IMG/VR virus record: IMGVR_UViG_3300034523_000082
Coordinates: 1 to 21,642 of that record
Reading direction: 5' to 3' (one strand)
From: a virus
Length of the DNA stretch: 21,642 bases
The notes under the pieces are model-generated. The model was given only the letters and a program-made list of their open reading frames with translations. It did no database searches and had not been told where the DNA came from. This document shows positions 4,954 through 9,833 of this stretch, one piece after another; the stretch's first letter is position 1; every line of letters starts with the position of its first letter. Made by a program: the position numbers and the translations under genes.

Positions 4954-5798
4954 GCTGCACCCCGCACAGCCTTGTCGTGGGTGTGCAGCCCGTCCCAGTT
5001 CTTCTTCATGGGCAGCTCGCCGGCCAGGTACAGCTCGTACAGGCGCACGGCGCCCTTGCGCAGAAGAATTGGCGTGTAGCTGATGAACGCCTCTTTCCCG
5101 TGCGGGGTGATCTCCTGCTGGTGTTCGGTCATGTACTTGTCGCGGGCGTAGGCGGCGACGCGGTACCGGGTACCGGACTTGCTCTCGTTGTAGAGCCAGC
5201 TGCGGCCTTCGAGGAAGTGGCCGACCTGCATCACGTTGACCCCATTCAGGCCCTTGCAGAACTGAACATGGCTCATGCCTTCCTTGAACAGGTTCTCCAG
5301 ATGGTCGATCTTCTTGGCCTGGGCCTCGACCTGGACAGTGAGCAGGACGCGGGCTTTCTCCGACTCCAGGGCCATCTGGAGGATTTCCAGCTTGCTCAGG
5401 TCGGTGGGCGCAGGCGGCGCTGCCTTCGCGAGGCGCCAGAATTCCTTGACCAAGCGTTTTTTGAACTCACGGACGATGGCCGTGTTGCGCATGTAGGTCA
5501 GCAGCAAGGTCGCCTGCTGCTCGTTCATCAGCGCAATCTCGCGGGACTGCATACCGCCTGCGGTCTCGAAGGGTTCGATTTGGAATCGCACCCCTCCAAA
5601 CTCGCTGAAGTCGGCCTGGTACTTGCGAACCAAGGCAATCACGCTGGCGTGCTCGTTGCCGGTTTCGTGAGCGATGGTGCCGGTGGTGGTCACCGCCTCA
5701 CCGTCGACGATGGCCACAATTGGAGTTCGCGCCACGAAATCGTGGTTCGCATTTTGTGGCGCGAGGGCCACGGTATTGATTTGGCTACCAAGGTGCAT
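4950..5798 (-). CDS. rha: Rha family regulator with C-terminal antirepressor (ANT/KilAC-like) domain
   Basis: The product is 282 residues from the ATG at 5798, which has GAGG nine bases upstream. An in-frame ATG 39 bases earlier lacks a good ribosome binding site and abuts the hairpin at 5839-5864. The N-terminal half has the Rha pattern: an IVDGEAVTTTG start, HASVIALVRKY, EFGGVRF, then REIALMNEQQATLLLTYMRN and a VKEFWRL helix. The C-terminal half, with EGMSHVQFCKGLNGVNVMQV, SRYR-like KSGTRYRVAAYARDKY and a TPILLRKGAVRLYEL end, resembles antirepressor C-terminal DNA-binding domains. Such proteins interfere with repressors or regulate host lysogeny. It heads the coupled thirteen-gene run, so it may control expression of that run. 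Confidence 0.85.
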   Translation of the reverse strand: MHLGSQINTVALAPQNANHDFVARTPIVAIVDGEAVTTTGTIAHETGNEHASVIALVRKYQADFSEFGGVRFQIEPFETAGGMQSREIALMNEQQATLLLTYMRNTAIVREFKKRLVKEFWRLAKAAPPAPTDLSKLEILQMALESEKARVLLTVQVEAQAKKIDHLENLFKEGMSHVQFCKGLNGVNVMQVGHFLEGRSWLYNESKSGTRYRVAAYARDKYMTEHQQEITPHGKEAFISYTPILLRKGAVRLYELYLAGELPMKKNWDGLHTHDKAVRGAA

Positions 5799-5838
5799 AT
5801 ATGATTGCCTCGCACATGTGTTACGAATGCAGTACAAG

Positions 5839-5864
5839 AAACCGGGCGGCCACCCGGTTTTTTT
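5839..5864. terminator. Terminator-like hairpin between small leftward genes and rha
   Basis: An inverted repeat AAACCGGG / CCCGGTTT (5839-5846 and 5853-5860) with a six-base loop is followed on the plus strand by a seven-T run ending at 5864. Read leftward the stem is followed by TTTCTTG, a weaker U-tract. It stands between the third leftward gene and rha, so in the leftward direction it would act as an attenuator. The stronger T-run faces right, where no gene points toward it in this window. Confidence 0.6.
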
Positions 5865-5875
5865 GCGCCTGCGGT

Positions 5876-6082
5876 TTAGGTGTCACTTTTGAGGCCCTCT
5901 TTAGGGGCCAATTGGTACAGCTTCGCTTTGGGCCTACCGACCATCGCCGGCCCTCCCATTGCCAGGAACTCGATGGCAATCGCCTCAAGTGCCTGATCAA
6001 TGCTCAAGCCCTTCTTCAAGGCGAAAGCACTGATCCTTCTCTTTGCACCATCACTCAGGTGCTCGTAGTCGATTTCGGGCAC
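5876..6082 (-). CDS. Small hypothetical early protein (68 aa)
   Basis: A 68-residue protein starting at GTG (6082) with an excellent GGAGGT four bases upstream. No ATG gives a comparable start. The N-terminal 45 residues include DGAKRRISAFALKKGLS followed by an amphipathic helix with EAIAIEFLAMG, a strand-helix-helix rhythm that could be a small DNA-binding or RHH-like fold. The remainder (GRPKAKLYQL) is basic. No family is firmly recognised. It is the third gene after the leftward promoter, where small regulators such as CII-like or RHH proteins are common, but no HTH consensus is clear enough to assign that. Confidence 0.65.
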   Translation of the reverse strand: MPEIDYEHLSDGAKRRISAFALKKGLSIDQALEAIAIEFLAMGGPAMVGRPKAKLYQLAPKEGLKSDT

Positions 6083-6100
6083 GTGACCTCCATAGGGCCC

Positions 6101-6301
6101 CTAGGCCGCGCTAGACTGCTTGTCGTCCTTGCTCAGCGCTTCAATCGCACCGTTTTCCACGGCCCACTCGATCATTTCGTAGAGGTAGGTCGCGTGCTGC
6201 ATCTCTGCGCGCTCTGCTGCCCTGGCCAGGATGCGGTCCAGGGTTTTGTTGAAACGGACCTTCCGAGGCGTATCACGCTTGTGGGATTGGTCTGCGTACA
6301 T
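6101..6301 (-). CDS. Arc-type ribbon-helix-helix protein (66 aa)
   Basis: The 66-residue product has a ribbon-helix-helix pattern. A basic N-terminus leads to a β-strand (RKVRFNKTLD), then helix A (RILARAAERAEM) and helix B after HATYLYEMIEWAVENG. This is the size and spacing of Arc/MetJ-type repressors, which bind DNA as dimers through the strand. The start has AAGGAG ten bases upstream. It lies second in the leftward transcript after the Cro-like gene and so is a candidate second-layer regulator. The fold is judged by eye and the DNA target is unknown. Confidence 0.7.
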   Translation of the reverse strand: MYADQSHKRDTPRKVRFNKTLDRILARAAERAEMQHATYLYEMIEWAVENGAIEALSKDDKQSSAA

Positions 6302-6331
6302 GCGGGTACTGCTCCTTGCGGTTGAAATGGG

Positions 6332-6571
6332 TTAGGCGGCGGACTTGGTTGGCGCGGTGACAGCTAGAAGGCGCTGAGCCTTGAACGGCTTGCCATTGGC
6401 CTTGGCCAGGACTGCGATCTTTTCCGCGTAGCTGGTCTCGCCGGTGTATTCGGTGCGCGGGAGGCAGCCAGCGGTGAGCCACTTGTAGACGGCGCGCGGC
6501 GTTTTCCCGCAAGCGAGCGCAACGGCAGTTACGCCGCCTGCGTCATCGATTGCCTTCTTGAGCTCCTGCAT
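6332..6571 (-). CDS. Cro-like (YdaS-type) regulator
   Basis: The first leftward gene, divergent from the repressor gene and separated from it only by the operator region. The 79-residue product is a Cro/YdaS-type helix-turn-helix: LKKAIDDAGGVTAVALACGK, then TPRAVYKWLTAG as the recognition helix, followed by TSYAEKIAVLA. This is the usual form of short Cro proteins of GC-rich phages, which turn off the repressor during lytic growth. GGAGG lies just before the ATG. Its promoter is covered by the two sites described at 6592-6628. The role is inferred from position and fold. Confidence 0.8.
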   Translation of the reverse strand: MQELKKAIDDAGGVTAVALACGKTPRAVYKWLTAGCLPRTEYTGETSYAEKIAVLAKANGKPFKAQRLLAVTAPTKSAA

Positions 6572-6586
6572 GGGGCCTCCAAACGA

Positions 6587-6615
6587 AATATGAACTGTCA
6601 GTACATATTATGTCG
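6587..6615 (-). promoter_or_regulatory. Leftward early promoter (PL-type)
   Basis: On the minus strand a CATATT -10 box (6592-6587) is placed relative to the two operator sites exactly as the CATATT of the rightward promoter is. The -35 region falls at 6615-6610 (CGACAT, a weak match, with CCGACA one register off). The predicted start near 6580 would leave a leader of about ten bases containing GGAGG before the Cro-like ATG. The call rests mainly on the shared geometry with the better rightward promoter. Confidence 0.6.
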
Positions 6616-6628
6616 GAACTGAAAGTAC
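6592..6628. promoter_or_regulatory. Operator pair between Cro-like gene and repressor
   Basis: Two sites follow G(A/T)AC-N5-GTAC: GAAC TGTCA GTAC at 6592-6604 and GAAC TGAAA GTAC at 6616-6628, starting 24 bp apart. The first is the core of a longer, nearly perfect 21-bp palindrome (6588-6608). The same motif with the same 24-bp spacing recurs at 9035-9071, the other early promoter. Two sites per promoter suggests cooperative repressor binding. The sites are seen directly. Binding by the adjacent repressor and by the Cro-like protein is inferred. Confidence 0.8.
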
Positions 6629-6654
6629 ATGCAAGCGCGTGCGATATTGAACCT

Positions 6655-7407
6655 ATGGTTCAGATAGAAGAAATACGCGCAGCCTTCGCGGCACGCCTGA
6701 GGGAAGCCCTGCTCGCCAACGACATTCCGTCGTGGGGCGCTGGTGCTCGTCTTGCGAAACTTGCCGGCGTTACGCCGAAGGCAAGCAGCAAGTGGCTGAA
6801 CGGAGAGTCAATGCCGGGCGGCGCCAAGATGCTTGCCCTGGCATCCGCGCTCAAGGTCCGGGTCGAGTGGCTGGAGTATGGGCGCGGTGGAATGCGGGAT
6901 GGCGATCATGAAGCCCCGAAGCCATTGGCGTCACAGCCCGCCGACATTCCCGCCTTCCCTACTGAAGATGACGAAGAAGACGCGTACGTACACATCAAGC
7001 AGTACACCGCCCTTGTTTCGGCGGGGCCAGGTCAATCCAATGACCACGTCGAGGTCAGGGGGACGCTCGCATTCAAGCGCGAGTGGATCCGGTTCATGGG
7101 CCTTAACCCGAGGAACCTGAAAGTAATTTACGCGCAGGGCTCAAGCATGGAGCCAACCATAAGTGATCGCGACGTATTGCTGATTGATGAGTCACGGATC
7201 GATCCTGTAGACGGCCAGGTGTTCGCGCTCTTCAGCGAGAACAAGGGTGCCATCGTCAAACGCCTTATCTTCTCCGACCTAGAGGGATGGATAATTCGGA
7301 GCGATAACCCAGACAAAGCACTCTATGCAGATCTCAAGGTGCCGGACGGAGAGATTCATGAGCACCGAATCCTTGGTCGCGTAATTTGGCGTGGCGGAGT
7401 CCTCTAG
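6655..7407 (+). CDS. CI/LexA-type phage repressor with S24 self-cleavage domain
   Basis: The product has an N-terminal helix-turn-helix (about residues 28-75: ARLAKLAGVTPKASSKWLNG) and a C-terminal S24/LexA peptidase domain. Catalytic Ser164 lies in GSSMEPT, Lys202 in AIVKRL, and a likely Ala-Gly cleavage bond at residues 123-124 in VSAGPG. It should hold the prophage silent and be inactivated by RecA-stimulated self-cleavage after DNA damage. I chose the ATG at 6655 because homologous repressors begin near IEEIR-like residues and because the upstream ATG at 6610 would put operator site two inside the coding region. Neither start has a clear Shine-Dalgarno, so the longer form of 265 residues remains possible. 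Confidence 0.9.
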   Translation: MVQIEEIRAAFAARLREALLANDIPSWGAGARLAKLAGVTPKASSKWLNGESMPGGAKMLALASALKVRVEWLEYGRGGMRDGDHEAPKPLASQPADIPAFPTEDDEEDAYVHIKQYTALVSAGPGQSNDHVEVRGTLAFKREWIRFMGLNPRNLKVIYAQGSSMEPTISDRDVLLIDESRIDPVDGQVFALFSENKGAIVKRLIFSDLEGWIIRSDNPDKALYADLKVPDGEIHEHRILGRVIWRGGVL

Positions 7408-7409
7408 CC

Positions 7410-7649
7410 ATGCCCCTAACCAAGCCCAACCAAGAACTCCGCCGCGACCTTCAGGGCCTGGCCTCCGACCTGAAATGGTCAGCGGTCGAGCTGATGCGGA
7501 TTGCTGAACGACTGAGCCTGGCCGGAAACGAGCACGACGCCCAGGCAGTGATCAGGATCTGCCAGGTTATGCAGGCTGCGGAGGATCGGTTGGTGGGGTA
7601 TGGGGATGAGGTAAAGGCTCGGCGGATTGAGCGACACAAGGCTGATTAG
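7410..7649 (+). CDS. Small hypothetical protein downstream of the repressor (79 aa)
   Basis: It starts two bases after the repressor stop, with GGAG about ten bases upstream, so it is probably co-transcribed with the repressor and expressed in the lysogen. The 79-residue product is helical and charged: ELRRDLQGLASDLKWSAVEL, then MRIAERLSLAG and EDRLVGYGDEVKARRIERHK. There is no signal peptide or membrane segment. No family is recognised. Expression with the repressor suggests a lysogenic-stage function such as repressor modulation or host protection, but that is only positional inference. Confidence 0.65.
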   Translation: MPLTKPNQELRRDLQGLASDLKWSAVELMRIAERLSLAGNEHDAQAVIRICQVMQAAEDRLVGYGDEVKARRIERHKAD

Positions 7650-7680
7650 CTCCTCCTCCGACACAAGATGAATCCAATTT

Positions 7681-7711
7681 TTGAGAGATCCCCGGAGATT
7701 TGCTTTAGGAT
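7681..7711 (+). promoter_or_regulatory. Possible promoter of the membrane-protein cassette
   Basis: TTGAGA at 7681-7686 is followed 17 bases later by TTTAGG (7704-7709) or 19 bases later by TAGGAT (7706-7711). The gene starts at 7721, so transcription from TAGGAT would leave almost no leader, while AGGA could also act as ribosome binding site. The same TAGGATGGC string precedes the lipoprotein gene at 8633. The call is tentative. Confidence 0.4.
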
Positions 7712-7720
7712 GGCTGCTAG

Positions 7721-7993
7721 ATGAGCTCTACCAAGGATGATGCCGCAAGCGGCTCCATGCTTAAGGATTTGTCGCTGGCGATTGACTCGTTCAAGGGGCT
7801 CCTGGAAATGATCTACGCCAAATCGGCGTACTTAGGCCATTTCTGCGTCATCATGATCATTGTCTGCCCCGCCTATGCTATCTACACTTGGGGAAAGATT
7901 GGGAAGCCCGAGCGCGCTGCTGACGAAAAGGCTGAGAAGGCCTTCAAGAAAAAGCTAGCCAAGGGCAAGAAATCTGGAGGTAAAGGGAAATGA
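7721..7993 (+). CDS. Membrane protein A of accessory pair (90 aa)
   Basis: A 90-residue protein with one transmembrane segment at about residues 37-57 (YLGHFCVIMIIVCPAYAIYT) and a strongly basic C-terminal tail rich in Lys and Gly (FKKKLAKGKKSGGKGK). The stop overlaps the next ATG as ATGA, so the two membrane genes form a pair. The cassette has its own apparent promoter and ends at a terminator, and lies in the immunity region, where superinfection-exclusion and other lysogenic-conversion genes are often found. No family is recognised. Base composition is visibly less GC-rich than flanking phage genes, consistent with separate acquisition. Confidence 0.7.
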   Translation: MSSTKDDAASGSMLKDLSLAIDSFKGLLEMIYAKSAYLGHFCVIMIIVCPAYAIYTWGKIGKPERAADEKAEKAFKKKLAKGKKSGGKGK

Positions 7994-8481
7994 TCGAATT
8001 TGTCGTCGCAAGCCTGCTGGCAGCTACCACTGTCGGCTATTGGGCGCTTTGCAGATCCCGATCCCTTCCTTTGAGGGAGAAGGCATCTCAACTGGTTACC
8101 GAGTACATCGAGCGCGATGATGTGTCGGAAGCAGACGCTCAGTCGATGTTCGGGGCCTATTTCATGGCTACCAAGTGCTGGTTCTTACCGCTGGCCGTGA
8201 TTCTGTCGATTGGGCTCATTCCCTACATTGCATTGGTCAGCAAACCTGGTGACAAGCCGACCCCGGATGACAAGCGCAAGATTATGGCCAGCTGCATGCT
8301 GTTCCATGTTGTGCGAAACCCTCTCATATCCGTTGTCTGCCTTTCCGTTATTTTCATATGGACAATGCTCTTTGTGGCCGGCGGCCTACTAACTCGCAGA
8401 ATCACCTCTGTTCCCTCTCTAGGCCAGGTTCTCGATATTTTGAGCATATTGAGGCCAGAAAGAGATAGGCATGCACATTGA
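7990..8481 (+). CDS. Membrane protein B of accessory pair (163 aa)
   Basis: A 163-residue integral membrane protein with three likely transmembrane segments, at about residues 2-21, 62-82 and 108-130 (a core of ISVVCLSVIFIWTMLFVAGG). Between the first two lies a soluble stretch containing EKASQLVTEYIERDDVSEAD. It is translated from an ATG overlapping the stop of the preceding gene, so the two products are probably made together and may form a complex. It ends just before a strong terminator. There is no recognisable family or catalytic motif. A role in excluding other phages or altering the host envelope is a plausible inference from location. Confidence 0.7.
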   Translation: MIEFVVASLLAATTVGYWALCRSRSLPLREKASQLVTEYIERDDVSEADAQSMFGAYFMATKCWFLPLAVILSIGLIPYIALVSKPGDKPTPDDKRKIMASCMLFHVVRNPLISVVCLSVIFIWTMLFVAGGLLTRRITSVPSLGQVLDILSILRPERDRHAH

Positions 8482-8485
8482 TGGT

Positions 8486-8509
8486 AAAGCCCGCCTAGGC
8501 GGGCTTTTT
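8486..8509 (+). terminator. Terminator after the membrane-protein pair
   Basis: AAAGCCCGCC (8486-8495) pairs with GGCGGGCTTT (8498-8507). In practice the loop is CTAG. T's run from 8505 to 8509. The stop codon of the upstream gene lies five bases before the stem. The stem sequence is nearly the same as that of the terminator at 8991-9015. Confidence 0.85.
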
Positions 8510-8574
8510 CATGCCTTAACGCTTTTTTCACGCCCTGCCCTGCACAGTGAAGGCTCATCCGATTTCCCTACGTT

Positions 8575-8601
8575 AGCCCGCGCTTCCCAGCGGGCTTTTT
8601 T
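8575..8601 (+). terminator. Second terminator, upstream boundary of the lipoprotein cassette
   Basis: AGCCCGC (8575-8581) pairs with GCGGGCT (8590-8596) around an eight-base loop and is followed by six T's (8596-8601). It is about 65 bases after the previous terminator with no gene between them, so it may be the trailing end of a gene lost by recombination, or a second barrier against read-through into the lipoprotein cassette. Confidence 0.8.
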
Positions 8602-8665
8602 ACGCCTGCGTGATGGCTCAAGGCCAGAGTGGTAGGATGGCGACTCAATTCACAGGGAGGTCGCC

Positions 8666-8974
8666 ATGCTTCGCCACATCCACCGCTTTCTTCTCGCTGC
8701 CGTAGTCGTCGCTCTGGCTGGGTGCGCCGGCACACCATTCACCTTCGGCCAGGCCAGCCAGGTTAAGGTCGGCATGACCGAGGATCAGCTCTACGAGATC
8801 ATGGGTAACCCCTACATGGTCACATCCAGGGAAGAGGGCCAGATGTGGATCTACAGCCATGCCACCGCCTTCAGTGGCGCTAAGACCGTATCCTTCGAGA
8901 CGAAGGACGGCAAGGTGACCAAAGTTCCGTACATCCCGAAGGACTTCATCGCCAAACCAAGCCCTGATGAGTGA
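8666..8974 (+). CDS. SmpA/BamE-like outer membrane lipoprotein
   Basis: A 102-residue lipoprotein precursor. Residues 1-19 are a signal peptide ending in a lipobox with LAGC, the lipidated Cys being residue 20. The next residue is Ala, so outer-membrane sorting is expected. The mature part has the SmpA/OmlA (BamE-fold) hallmark KVGMTEDQLYEIMGNP, followed by β-strands with EGQMWIYSH and KVTKVPYIPK. GGGAGG precedes the ATG. The gene stands alone between two terminators, a typical moron arrangement. The family fold is well supported. A role in blocking superinfection or altering the outer membrane of the lysogen is inferred. Confidence 0.85.
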   Translation: MLRHIHRFLLAAVVVALAGCAGTPFTFGQASQVKVGMTEDQLYEIMGNPYMVTSREEGQMWIYSHATAFSGAKTVSFETKDGKVTKVPYIPKDFIAKPSPDE

Positions 8975-8990
8975 TTCAACCGATTCCATG

Positions 8991-9015
8991 AAGCCCGCCT
9001 AGCGCGGGCTTTTTT
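8991..9015 (+). terminator. Terminator after the lipoprotein gene
   Basis: AAGCCCGC (8991-8998) pairs with GCGGGCTT (9004-9011) around a five-base loop, and T's run from 9010 to 9015. It closes the lipoprotein cassette just before the rightward operator-promoter region, insulating the latter from repressor-phase transcription. Confidence 0.88.
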
Positions 9016-9034
9016 GTGGGCGCGAGAAAAATGT

Positions 9035-9071
9035 GTACTTTTGGTACTTGACGACTGTGAACCTCTGGTAC
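9035..9071. promoter_or_regulatory. Operator pair at the rightward early promoter
   Basis: GTAC TTTTG GTAC at 9035-9047 and GAAC CTCTG GTAC at 9059-9071 both fit G(A/T)AC-N5-GTAC, and start 24 bp apart. The pair beside the repressor gene (6592 and 6616) has the same motif and the same spacing. One site lies directly upstream of the -35 box and the other fills the spacer, so bound repressor would block RNA polymerase. The second site shares TGAAC-N5-GTACATATT with the first left site. Confidence 0.8.
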
Positions 9072-9076
9072 ATATT
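9048..9076 (+). promoter_or_regulatory. Rightward early promoter (PR-type)
   Basis: TTGACG (9048-9053), a 17-base spacer and CATATT (9071-9076) make a good sigma-70-type promoter driving the right arm. Operator sites overlap it on both sides of the -35 box. The first gene with a clear ribosome binding site starts at 9329, so the leader is about 245 bases. Confidence 0.75.
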
Positions 9077-9083
9077 TACACCC

Positions 9084-9328
9084 ATCGAGGCGCTACACAG
9101 CCCCTCGGGAGGCCCTCAAGGCCACACACGACTGGTGAAGCCGCCAGATAGCACGGGATCAGCGAAGTGATCTCCCAGCCCCGGAAAGCGGGACCGACTG
9201 GAATCAAGTTCTTTGACAGATGAAGCGCCGATGCTGCCGCCAGTAGCGGGCTGAGGCGTACGGACCACGAGATTCACTGAAGCACCTGGGCGACCGGGTG
9301 CTTTGGGAATCCACTGGAGGAACACAGC
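9084..9328 (+). ncRNA. Hairpin-rich untranslated leader of the right arm
   Basis: No credible gene lies in this stretch. It holds several stem-loops: GATCA-gcgaag-TGATC (9157-9172), CCCG-gaaag-CGGG near 9179-9191, and AAGCACC / GGTGCTT around 9281-9303, the last just upstream of the first ribosome binding site. No poly-U follows them. It may be an antitermination element, a regulatory leader or a stable small RNA. None of these is shown by the sequence alone. Confidence 0.4.
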
Positions 9329-9463
9329 ATGAACCGCAAACAATTCCGGAAGGCCCGCGTCGCCGTGAAGTCCGACCGCCTGAACAACACCTGCAACTGC
9401 CTCGTTCCCGGTTACGAGAAGGCGCTGATCCTTGAGCTGATGCACCGCCCACGCTCCTGGTGA
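9329..9463 (+). CDS. Small basic protein, first gene of right arm (44 aa)
   Basis: A 44-codon gene with a strong GGAGG eight bases before the ATG. The product starts MNRKQFRKARVAVKSDRLNN and includes TCNCLVPGYEK and ends RPRSW. It is basic at the N-terminus and has a single closely spaced Cys pair. No family is recognised. As the first gene after the rightward early promoter it would be produced early on induction. The ribosome binding site and codon use support translation. Confidence 0.55.
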   Translation: MNRKQFRKARVAVKSDRLNNTCNCLVPGYEKALILELMHRPRSW

Positions 9464-9471
9464 TTTCACTC

Positions 9472-9495
9472 GCAGCCATTCCTATGAGTGGCTGC
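9472..9495 (+). repeat. Stem-loop in the gap before the 103-aa gene
   Basis: GCAGCCA (9472-9478) pairs with TGGCTGC (9489-9495), with further weak pairing toward the loop. There is no T-run. It lies between two right-arm genes, and could affect processing or translation of the downstream GTG-started gene. Confidence 0.5.
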
Positions 9496-9521
9496 CGGGA
9501 AATCAACCCGAGGGCATCCAC

Positions 9522-9833
9522 GTGAACAAAGAAGAAATCTACGACGAGCAGATCAGCCCGCTGATGCAGCAGATCATCGCCATCTGTAAGGAAAAGGGCA
9601 TCGCAATGCAGGCCAGCTTCGACATCGCTCACGATGGCGAAGGCCCGAACGGCGAGGATTGCTCGTCTCTGACCTGCACAACTCACTTGCCTGACGGTGA
9701 AGGTAAGTTCAACGAGCGCTTCGAAAAGGCAAACCAAATCATTCGCCAGGGTCACCGCTCGCACAGCGCTCCGGTTATGCACCTCACCACCGTGAACCCC
9801 GATGGCTCAATGACCCTGGCCGCGATCATCTGA
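9522..9833 (+). CDS. Hypothetical phage protein (103 aa)
   Basis: A 103-residue soluble protein that starts at GTG behind GAGGG. Near the start it has EEIYDEQISPLMQQIIAICK, then KGIAMQASFDIA, and a later segment with SSLTCTTHLPDGEG. The C-terminus has APVMHLTTVNPDGSMTLAAI. The pattern resembles small conserved early proteins of Pseudomonas phages but no function is known to me. It follows the stem-loop at 9472-9495 and precedes a 362-base gap. The frame is well supported by length and codon bias. The role is unknown. Confidence 0.75.
   Translation: MNKEEIYDEQISPLMQQIIAICKEKGIAMQASFDIAHDGEGPNGEDCSSLTCTTHLPDGEGKFNERFEKANQIIRQGHRSHSAPVMHLTTVNPDGSMTLAAII

Follow-up and report, generated by a model that had tools for sequence, protein, structure and literature searches.

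The viral record IMGVR_UViG_3300034523_000082 of IMG/VR (positions 1 to 21,642; the analysis covered this 21.6-kb stretch as a whole, hereafter the window) carries a cI-type repressor gene, a divergent cro gene, and putative repressor operators at two early promoters. The gene map is lambda-like, but its orientation is opposite to that of the usual lambda map; lambda's names for the right and left operators (OR and OL) and early promoters (PR and PL) are kept here. Leftward from OR lie cro, two small genes, a Rha/ANT antirepressor gene, and then seemingly replication and Nin-like genes; an apparent recombination operon runs rightward from OL. The Erf-, YqaJ-, and SSB-like, replication, and Nin-like assignments come from reading translations, not from a family search. 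The regulators and proposed operators are as follows (window coordinates).

6332-6571, minus strand: Cro, 79 amino acids, recognition helix TPRAVYKW; phrog_35, P22_Cro/YdaS-like below the Pfam cut-off.
6592-6604 (15-bp site 6591-6605): OR1, GAACTGTCAGTAC, offset -63 from the cI ATG, overlapping the cro transcript start.
6616-6628: OR2, GAACTGAAAGTAC, offset -39, in the spacer between the -35 and -10 boxes of PR and over the presumed -35 of the cI promoter (PRM).
6649-6661: OR3, GAACCTATGGTTC, offset -6, containing the cI start codon (ATG at 6655).
6655-7407, plus strand: cI-type repressor, 250 amino acids, HTH_3 and Peptidase_S24 domains, recognition helix TPKASSKW.
9035-9047: OL site a, GTACTTTTGGTAC, directly upstream of the PL -35.
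9059-9071: OL site b, GAACCTCTGGTAC, in the PL -35/-10 spacer and adjoining the -10.

The original prediction, made from the sequence by eye, had proposed four sites of the form G(A/T)AC-N5-GTAC at 6592, 6616, 9035, and 9059. All four are present, and the pattern gives eight strand-matches in the window against 0.29 expected from shuffling; it additionally matches at 5028 (within the Rha/ANT gene) and 21238. Because repressor sites are two-fold symmetric, this asymmetric form was recast as GWAC-N5-GTWC (GWACNNNNNGTWC), which has seven matches: those at 6592, 6616, 9035, 9059, 5028, and 21238, and a fifth putative operator at 6649-6661 (OR3) that had been overlooked. In windows of matching composition simulated with Markov models, the symmetric motif averages 0.46 matches at order 1 and 1.35 at order 3. 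The start-to-start spacing is 24 bp in both predicted pairs (6592/6616 and 9035/9059), as had been claimed, and this is not chance, since neither 24-bp pairs nor triples spaced 24 and 33 bp occurred in 800 simulated windows. With a weight matrix trained on relatives of less than 85% repressor identity only, the OR and OL sites rank first to fifth in the window (23.1, 20.4, 20.3, 19.4, and 15.6 bits; next best 10.1), with OR3 the highest. The OR2 sequence is identical across all 67 training loci, and the 13-mer of OL site a is identical in 42 of 55. The matches at 5028 and 21238 were rejected as extra operators (matrix scores 5.0 and 7.7; the first lies in coding sequence). From the sequence, OR thus has three sites on the left (6592, 6616, and 6649) and OL has two on the right (9035 and 9059), so that the compact two-site design first proposed stands for OL and fails for OR. 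OR3 also spans cI codons 1-3 (6655-6663), and the operator thereby fixes M-V-(Q/H) as the first residues of most relatives' repressors.

This arrangement is a known kind of operator switch and not a new design. In coliphage HK022 (X16093), the annotated oR sites lie at -63/-39/-6 from the cI ATG and the oL sites 24 bp apart, base for base as in the window, and the pR and pL hexamers have offsets identical to those of the window's promoters. The HK022 OL has its -35 between the two sites and its -10 adjoining the second, as does the window's; HK022 also shares the position of OR3 on the cI ATG, the divergent cro, and an early leader RNA shortly after PL. The two repressors have homologous N-terminal domains and are only 32% identical overall, and the Cro proteins are 56% identical over 55 residues. 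HK022 differs in that its OL directly follows cI, whereas 1.6 kb of cargo separates them in the window, and in having a nun gene, of which none was seen in the window. Phage 933W likewise has five natural operators, three at OR and two at OL (PMC3317979, PMC5977221). Its repressor binds a 15-bp site with the half-site N-G-(A/T)-A-C-(T/C) through S41, K42, K46, and E51, and specificity is lost in K46A (PMC3317979). The half-site G-W-A-C-Y is the window motif, and the window CI carries K42, K46, and, downstream, E51. Lambda shares with the window divergent cro and cI, repressor-controlled PR and PL, and a distance of about 2.3-2.4 kb from OL to OR; it differs in its motif and in having three sites on each side, against two at the window's OL.

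Conservation was assessed in 80 viral loci, namely the window and 79 others found via the repressor. The OR triple stands at exactly -63/-39/-6 in 79 of the 80. In many of these repressors identity is 59-82% in the DNA-binding domain and only 19-34% in the C-terminal domain, with the operators kept; the exception, L040, has a C-terminal domain that is 65% identical, an unrelated DNA-binding domain (18%), and no site. When viral contigs were searched with the OL pattern, making no use of the repressor, every one of the 33 informative hits had, upstream and on the same strand, the OR triple and after it a TPKAxSKW repressor. The same three-plus-two sites occur in Pseudomonas phages Riah and vB_PstS-pAN and in Klebsiella and Citrobacter phages (L001-L008), with an OL spacing of 24 or 25 bp, other cargo, and other C-terminal domains; no operators are annotated in the regions fetched. 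In Escherichia phage 1H12, whose 933W-like repressor stood in for that of 933W in sequence comparison, the scheme recurs with one site degenerate; the C-terminal domain of this repressor gives no significant BLAST alignment to the window's. The OR1-OR2 sequence is also found in the genomes of Pseudomonas juntendi, P. palmensis, and P. vranovensis, and Pseudomonas is therefore the likely host.

These comparisons decide against two other explanations of the sites. Chance palindromes or coding constraint could produce some matches, such as that at 5028 in conserved coding sequence, and OR3 does overlap cI codons 1-3; this explanation is refuted by the lack of any 24-bp pair in the 800 simulations and by conservation of the sites across some 70 distinct regions as well as in phages of Klebsiella, Citrobacter, Providencia, and E. 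coli. It is also highly improbable that the sites serve mainly Cro or an antirepressor while CI uses other DNA. The matching recognition helix of Cro speaks for such a role, but where C-terminal domains are swapped the sites stay with the CI N-terminal domain, the motif is also the one bound by the 933W repressor (PMC3317979), and the HK022 annotation names them repressor binding sites.

The two OL sites start 24 bp apart in 45 loci, and 21 loci have 25 bp instead. Fourteen loci, all with 25-bp spacing, have a third OL-like site further upstream, 64-77 bp from the OL pair and in most cases 72-77 (L054, L056, L067, L070-L072, L075-L077, L080, and L082-L085).

As the original prediction said, some 2.4 kb that holds accessory genes separates the window's two early promoters; it had also called DNA looping between the pairs conceivable. 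A compact two-plus-two design joined by a DNA loop, distinct from known lambdoid switches, would agree with the identical 24-bp spacing of the two pairs and with the lack of a third site upstream of the window's OL. It is nevertheless very unlikely, given that the site at 6649 is the top-scoring one in the window and recurs at -6 in 79 of 80 loci and in HK022, and that 14 relatives have a third site even at OL. The distance of 2.4 kb is not a design feature either, since OR and OL are 0.8-4.7 kb apart in relatives, which indicates that relatives keep to neither a particular loop length nor a particular helical phase.

We conclude that the window holds an HK022-operator-type immunity region of a lambdoid Pseudomonas prophage or phage, in which CI would act on five 15-bp sites (probability about 0.93). 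Several observations weigh against this conclusion. HK022 has a further CI operator about 300 bp beyond OR, and no high-scoring site was found at 5040-6592 in the window; that operator is accessory and does not define the type. The weight matrix finds no third OL site in the window. S41 of the 933W repressor, which contacts operator position 2, is replaced by proline in the window CI; residue 41 is also proline in HK022 CI. The 933W repressor, which recognizes the same motif as the window's, reportedly binds without cooperativity (PMC3317979), and since cooperativity and looping reside in the C-terminal domain and the window CI is only 32% identical to that of HK022, neither property is to be assumed. 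Finally, in 20 whole relatives the loose motif outside OR and OL was neither commoner nor rarer than a reversed-pattern control, and for this reason a stricter motif (GWACYNNNRGTWC) and the matrix were used. In the 20 relatives' contigs (13-67 kb) the stricter motif has 4-6 sites each and its reversed control 0-8; the OR and OL sites account for most of the motif's matches (four or five) among the contigs listed. Frequent occurrence elsewhere, the doubt raised with the original prediction, thus did not overturn the operators. Its central claim, repressor operators at both early promoters beside cI, is borne out by the HK022 offsets and by conservation in relatives, although binding itself is here presumed.

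The promoters and the terminator ahead of PL are placed as follows.

6634-6607, minus strand: putative PR for the cro/replication operon; -35 TTGCAT (6634-6629), 16-bp spacer holding OR2, -10 CATAAT (6612-6607).
6619-6655, plus strand: presumed PRM; -10 GATATT (6643-6648), weak -35 CTGAAA/TGAAAG within OR2.
8993-9015, plus strand: probable terminator, GCCCGC-GCGGGC stem followed by T6, which would end cI and cargo transcription just ahead of PL.
9048-9076, plus strand: PL, at the position of the annotated HK022 pL; TTGACG (9048-9053), 17 bp, CATATT (9071-9076), with transcription expected to start at about 9083.

PL (TTGACG-17-CATATT) is the sole sigma-70-like match within 6200-9700. A CATATT hexamer adjoins the outer site on both sides (9071-9076, plus strand; 6592-6587, minus strand), as the original prediction had noted in reading it as the -10 box in both directions, and of the two copies just the right one belongs to a good promoter. 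The left copy was rejected as the -10 of cro: transcription would begin at the first base of the cro Shine-Dalgarno sequence, and the hexamer is not conserved beyond Pseudomonas relatives, being absent from HK022 and from the Klebsiella and pAN relatives. The leftward cro promoter is likely TTGCAT-16-CATAAT, whose -10 lies between the two sites; it coincides with the annotated HK022 pR, and its flanking bases are conserved in 69 distinct OR regions. The presumed PRM would start transcription at the A of the cI ATG, giving a leaderless mRNA; its -10 is GATATT in 41 loci, and the A at position 2 and T at position 6 are present in just 13 of 21 distinct hexamers. The stretch 8991-9032 around the terminator is 93-95% conserved in Pseudomonas phages.

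In a lysogen, CI dimers on OR1, OR2, and the OL pair would block PR (leftward: cro, antirepressor, and replication) and PL (rightward: the recombination operon). Occupancy of OR3, which covers the cI start just past the presumed PRM -10, should stop cI synthesis. Because the presumed PRM -35 falls within OR2, lambda-type activation from OR2 may not operate, to judge by the spacing. SOS-triggered self-cleavage of CI through its S24 domain, or the Rha/ANT-type antirepressor of the operon, could free PR and PL, and Cro, whose recognition helix matches that of CI closely enough for both to read the same sites, should bind them and favor lysis. CI at OL and CI at OR probably interact at a distance: HK022 CI loops OL to OR in vivo and binds neighboring sites cooperatively (PMC8053113), so looping in the window phage is plausible by analogy. 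The C-terminal domain of the window CI is unlike that of HK022 or 933W.

Between cI and OL lies an interval that we regard as a cargo slot, in the window occupied by:

7410-8974, plus strand: variable cargo, with open reading frames (ORFs) at 7410-7649, 7721-7993, 7990-8481, and 8666-8974.

Two of its products are probable membrane proteins, and that of 8666-8974 is a BamE-like lipoprotein; the interval (7408-9034) has no PADLOC defense match. The 194 ORFs counted in this interval across 68 loci fall into 111 sequence clusters, a diversity that marks it as hypervariable. Relatives' cargo includes strong PADLOC matches to PD-Lambda-5_B (2e-107), PDC-M53A (1.5e-153), and PDC-S42 (5e-32), others being weak, and Pfam families that include Imm_superinfect and restriction and methyltransferase domains. 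The OR-OL distance varies because this partly defense-like cargo is interchangeable. We take the position to correspond to that of lambda rexAB.

Downstream of PL the window contains a structured element.

9121-9228, plus strand: putative PL leader RNA, with stem I at 9132-9147, a stem II, a covarying stem III, and after these boxA-like GTTCTTTGACA at 9208-9218.

The 30-nt core of this element is present in 78 IMG/VR contigs (copies: the window, L086, and L096-L173), and three hairpins emerge when 41 distinct copies are aligned. Stem III shows 34 double-sided changes, compared with 6.4 +/- 2.0 in shuffles and 0-4 when the pairing is slid; stems I and II are nearly invariant, largely because the core served as the search pattern. 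A boxA-like [CT]TCTTT follows 76-79 nt on in 76 of 79 copies. The element lies mostly 27-59 nt past the -10 box of whichever promoter scores best. This is usually a TTGAC promoter with palindromes on either side, and it is of the HK022 type in only 10 of 79, which suggests that the element moves between immunity types. A coding explanation was ruled out by stops in all three forward frames in 41 of 41 sequences, and a second copy at PR by the single copy per contig in all 25 carriers tested.

In HK022 the corresponding place in the PL leader is taken by the cis-acting put RNA (PMC9378689). The window element seems to differ from put and has a boxA-like sequence; its model (R1) finds no match in HK022, in a test that used the window-type model and not a put model. 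No N-binding boxB was identified in the window leader, blastn of the annotated phage collection left the element unmatched, and we found no description of such a leader RNA in Pseudomonas phages in the literature searched. It has no match in Rfam, where the window yields only sub-threshold mir-242_2 and RsmY hits, far under gathering scores. Given its position at the place of put, its boxA-like sequence, its non-coding character, and its single copy, cis antitermination is the best guess, and the leader RNA is probably such an element. For the fuller proposal, an undescribed cis antitermination RNA that serves early operons of Pseudomonas lambdoid prophages and is passed on independently of the immunity specificity upstream, the odds seem about even.

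Relatives mostly have another leader: boxA-like GCTCTTTA / CGCTCTTTAACA occurs in the PL leaders of 44 of 68 (L009-L085), nearly always 50-69 nt past the OL pair, against a background of 0.003 per 300 nt elsewhere, and the window carries the 9121-9228 element in place of the GCTCTTTA arrangement. These boxA-like leaders continue with one of several interchangeable non-coding modules. A second, different structured module follows OL at L036:5147-5320 and in 12 relatives (alignment A2); 5 of its 34 predicted pairs have two-sided compensatory changes, and it matches no Rfam family at the gathering threshold.

A single five-site CI/Cro module thus appears to be common, base-exact, to enterobacterial and Pseudomonas prophages, with free exchange of the CI C-terminal domain and of the cargo between cI and OL around fixed operators. 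Such natural swaps offer a way to separate operator recognition from cooperativity and looping, and the shared module may predict which prophages share immunity. If the leader RNA is indeed an antiterminator, Pseudomonas phages would have in it a widespread early-operon element with a role like that of lambda nut and HK022 put.

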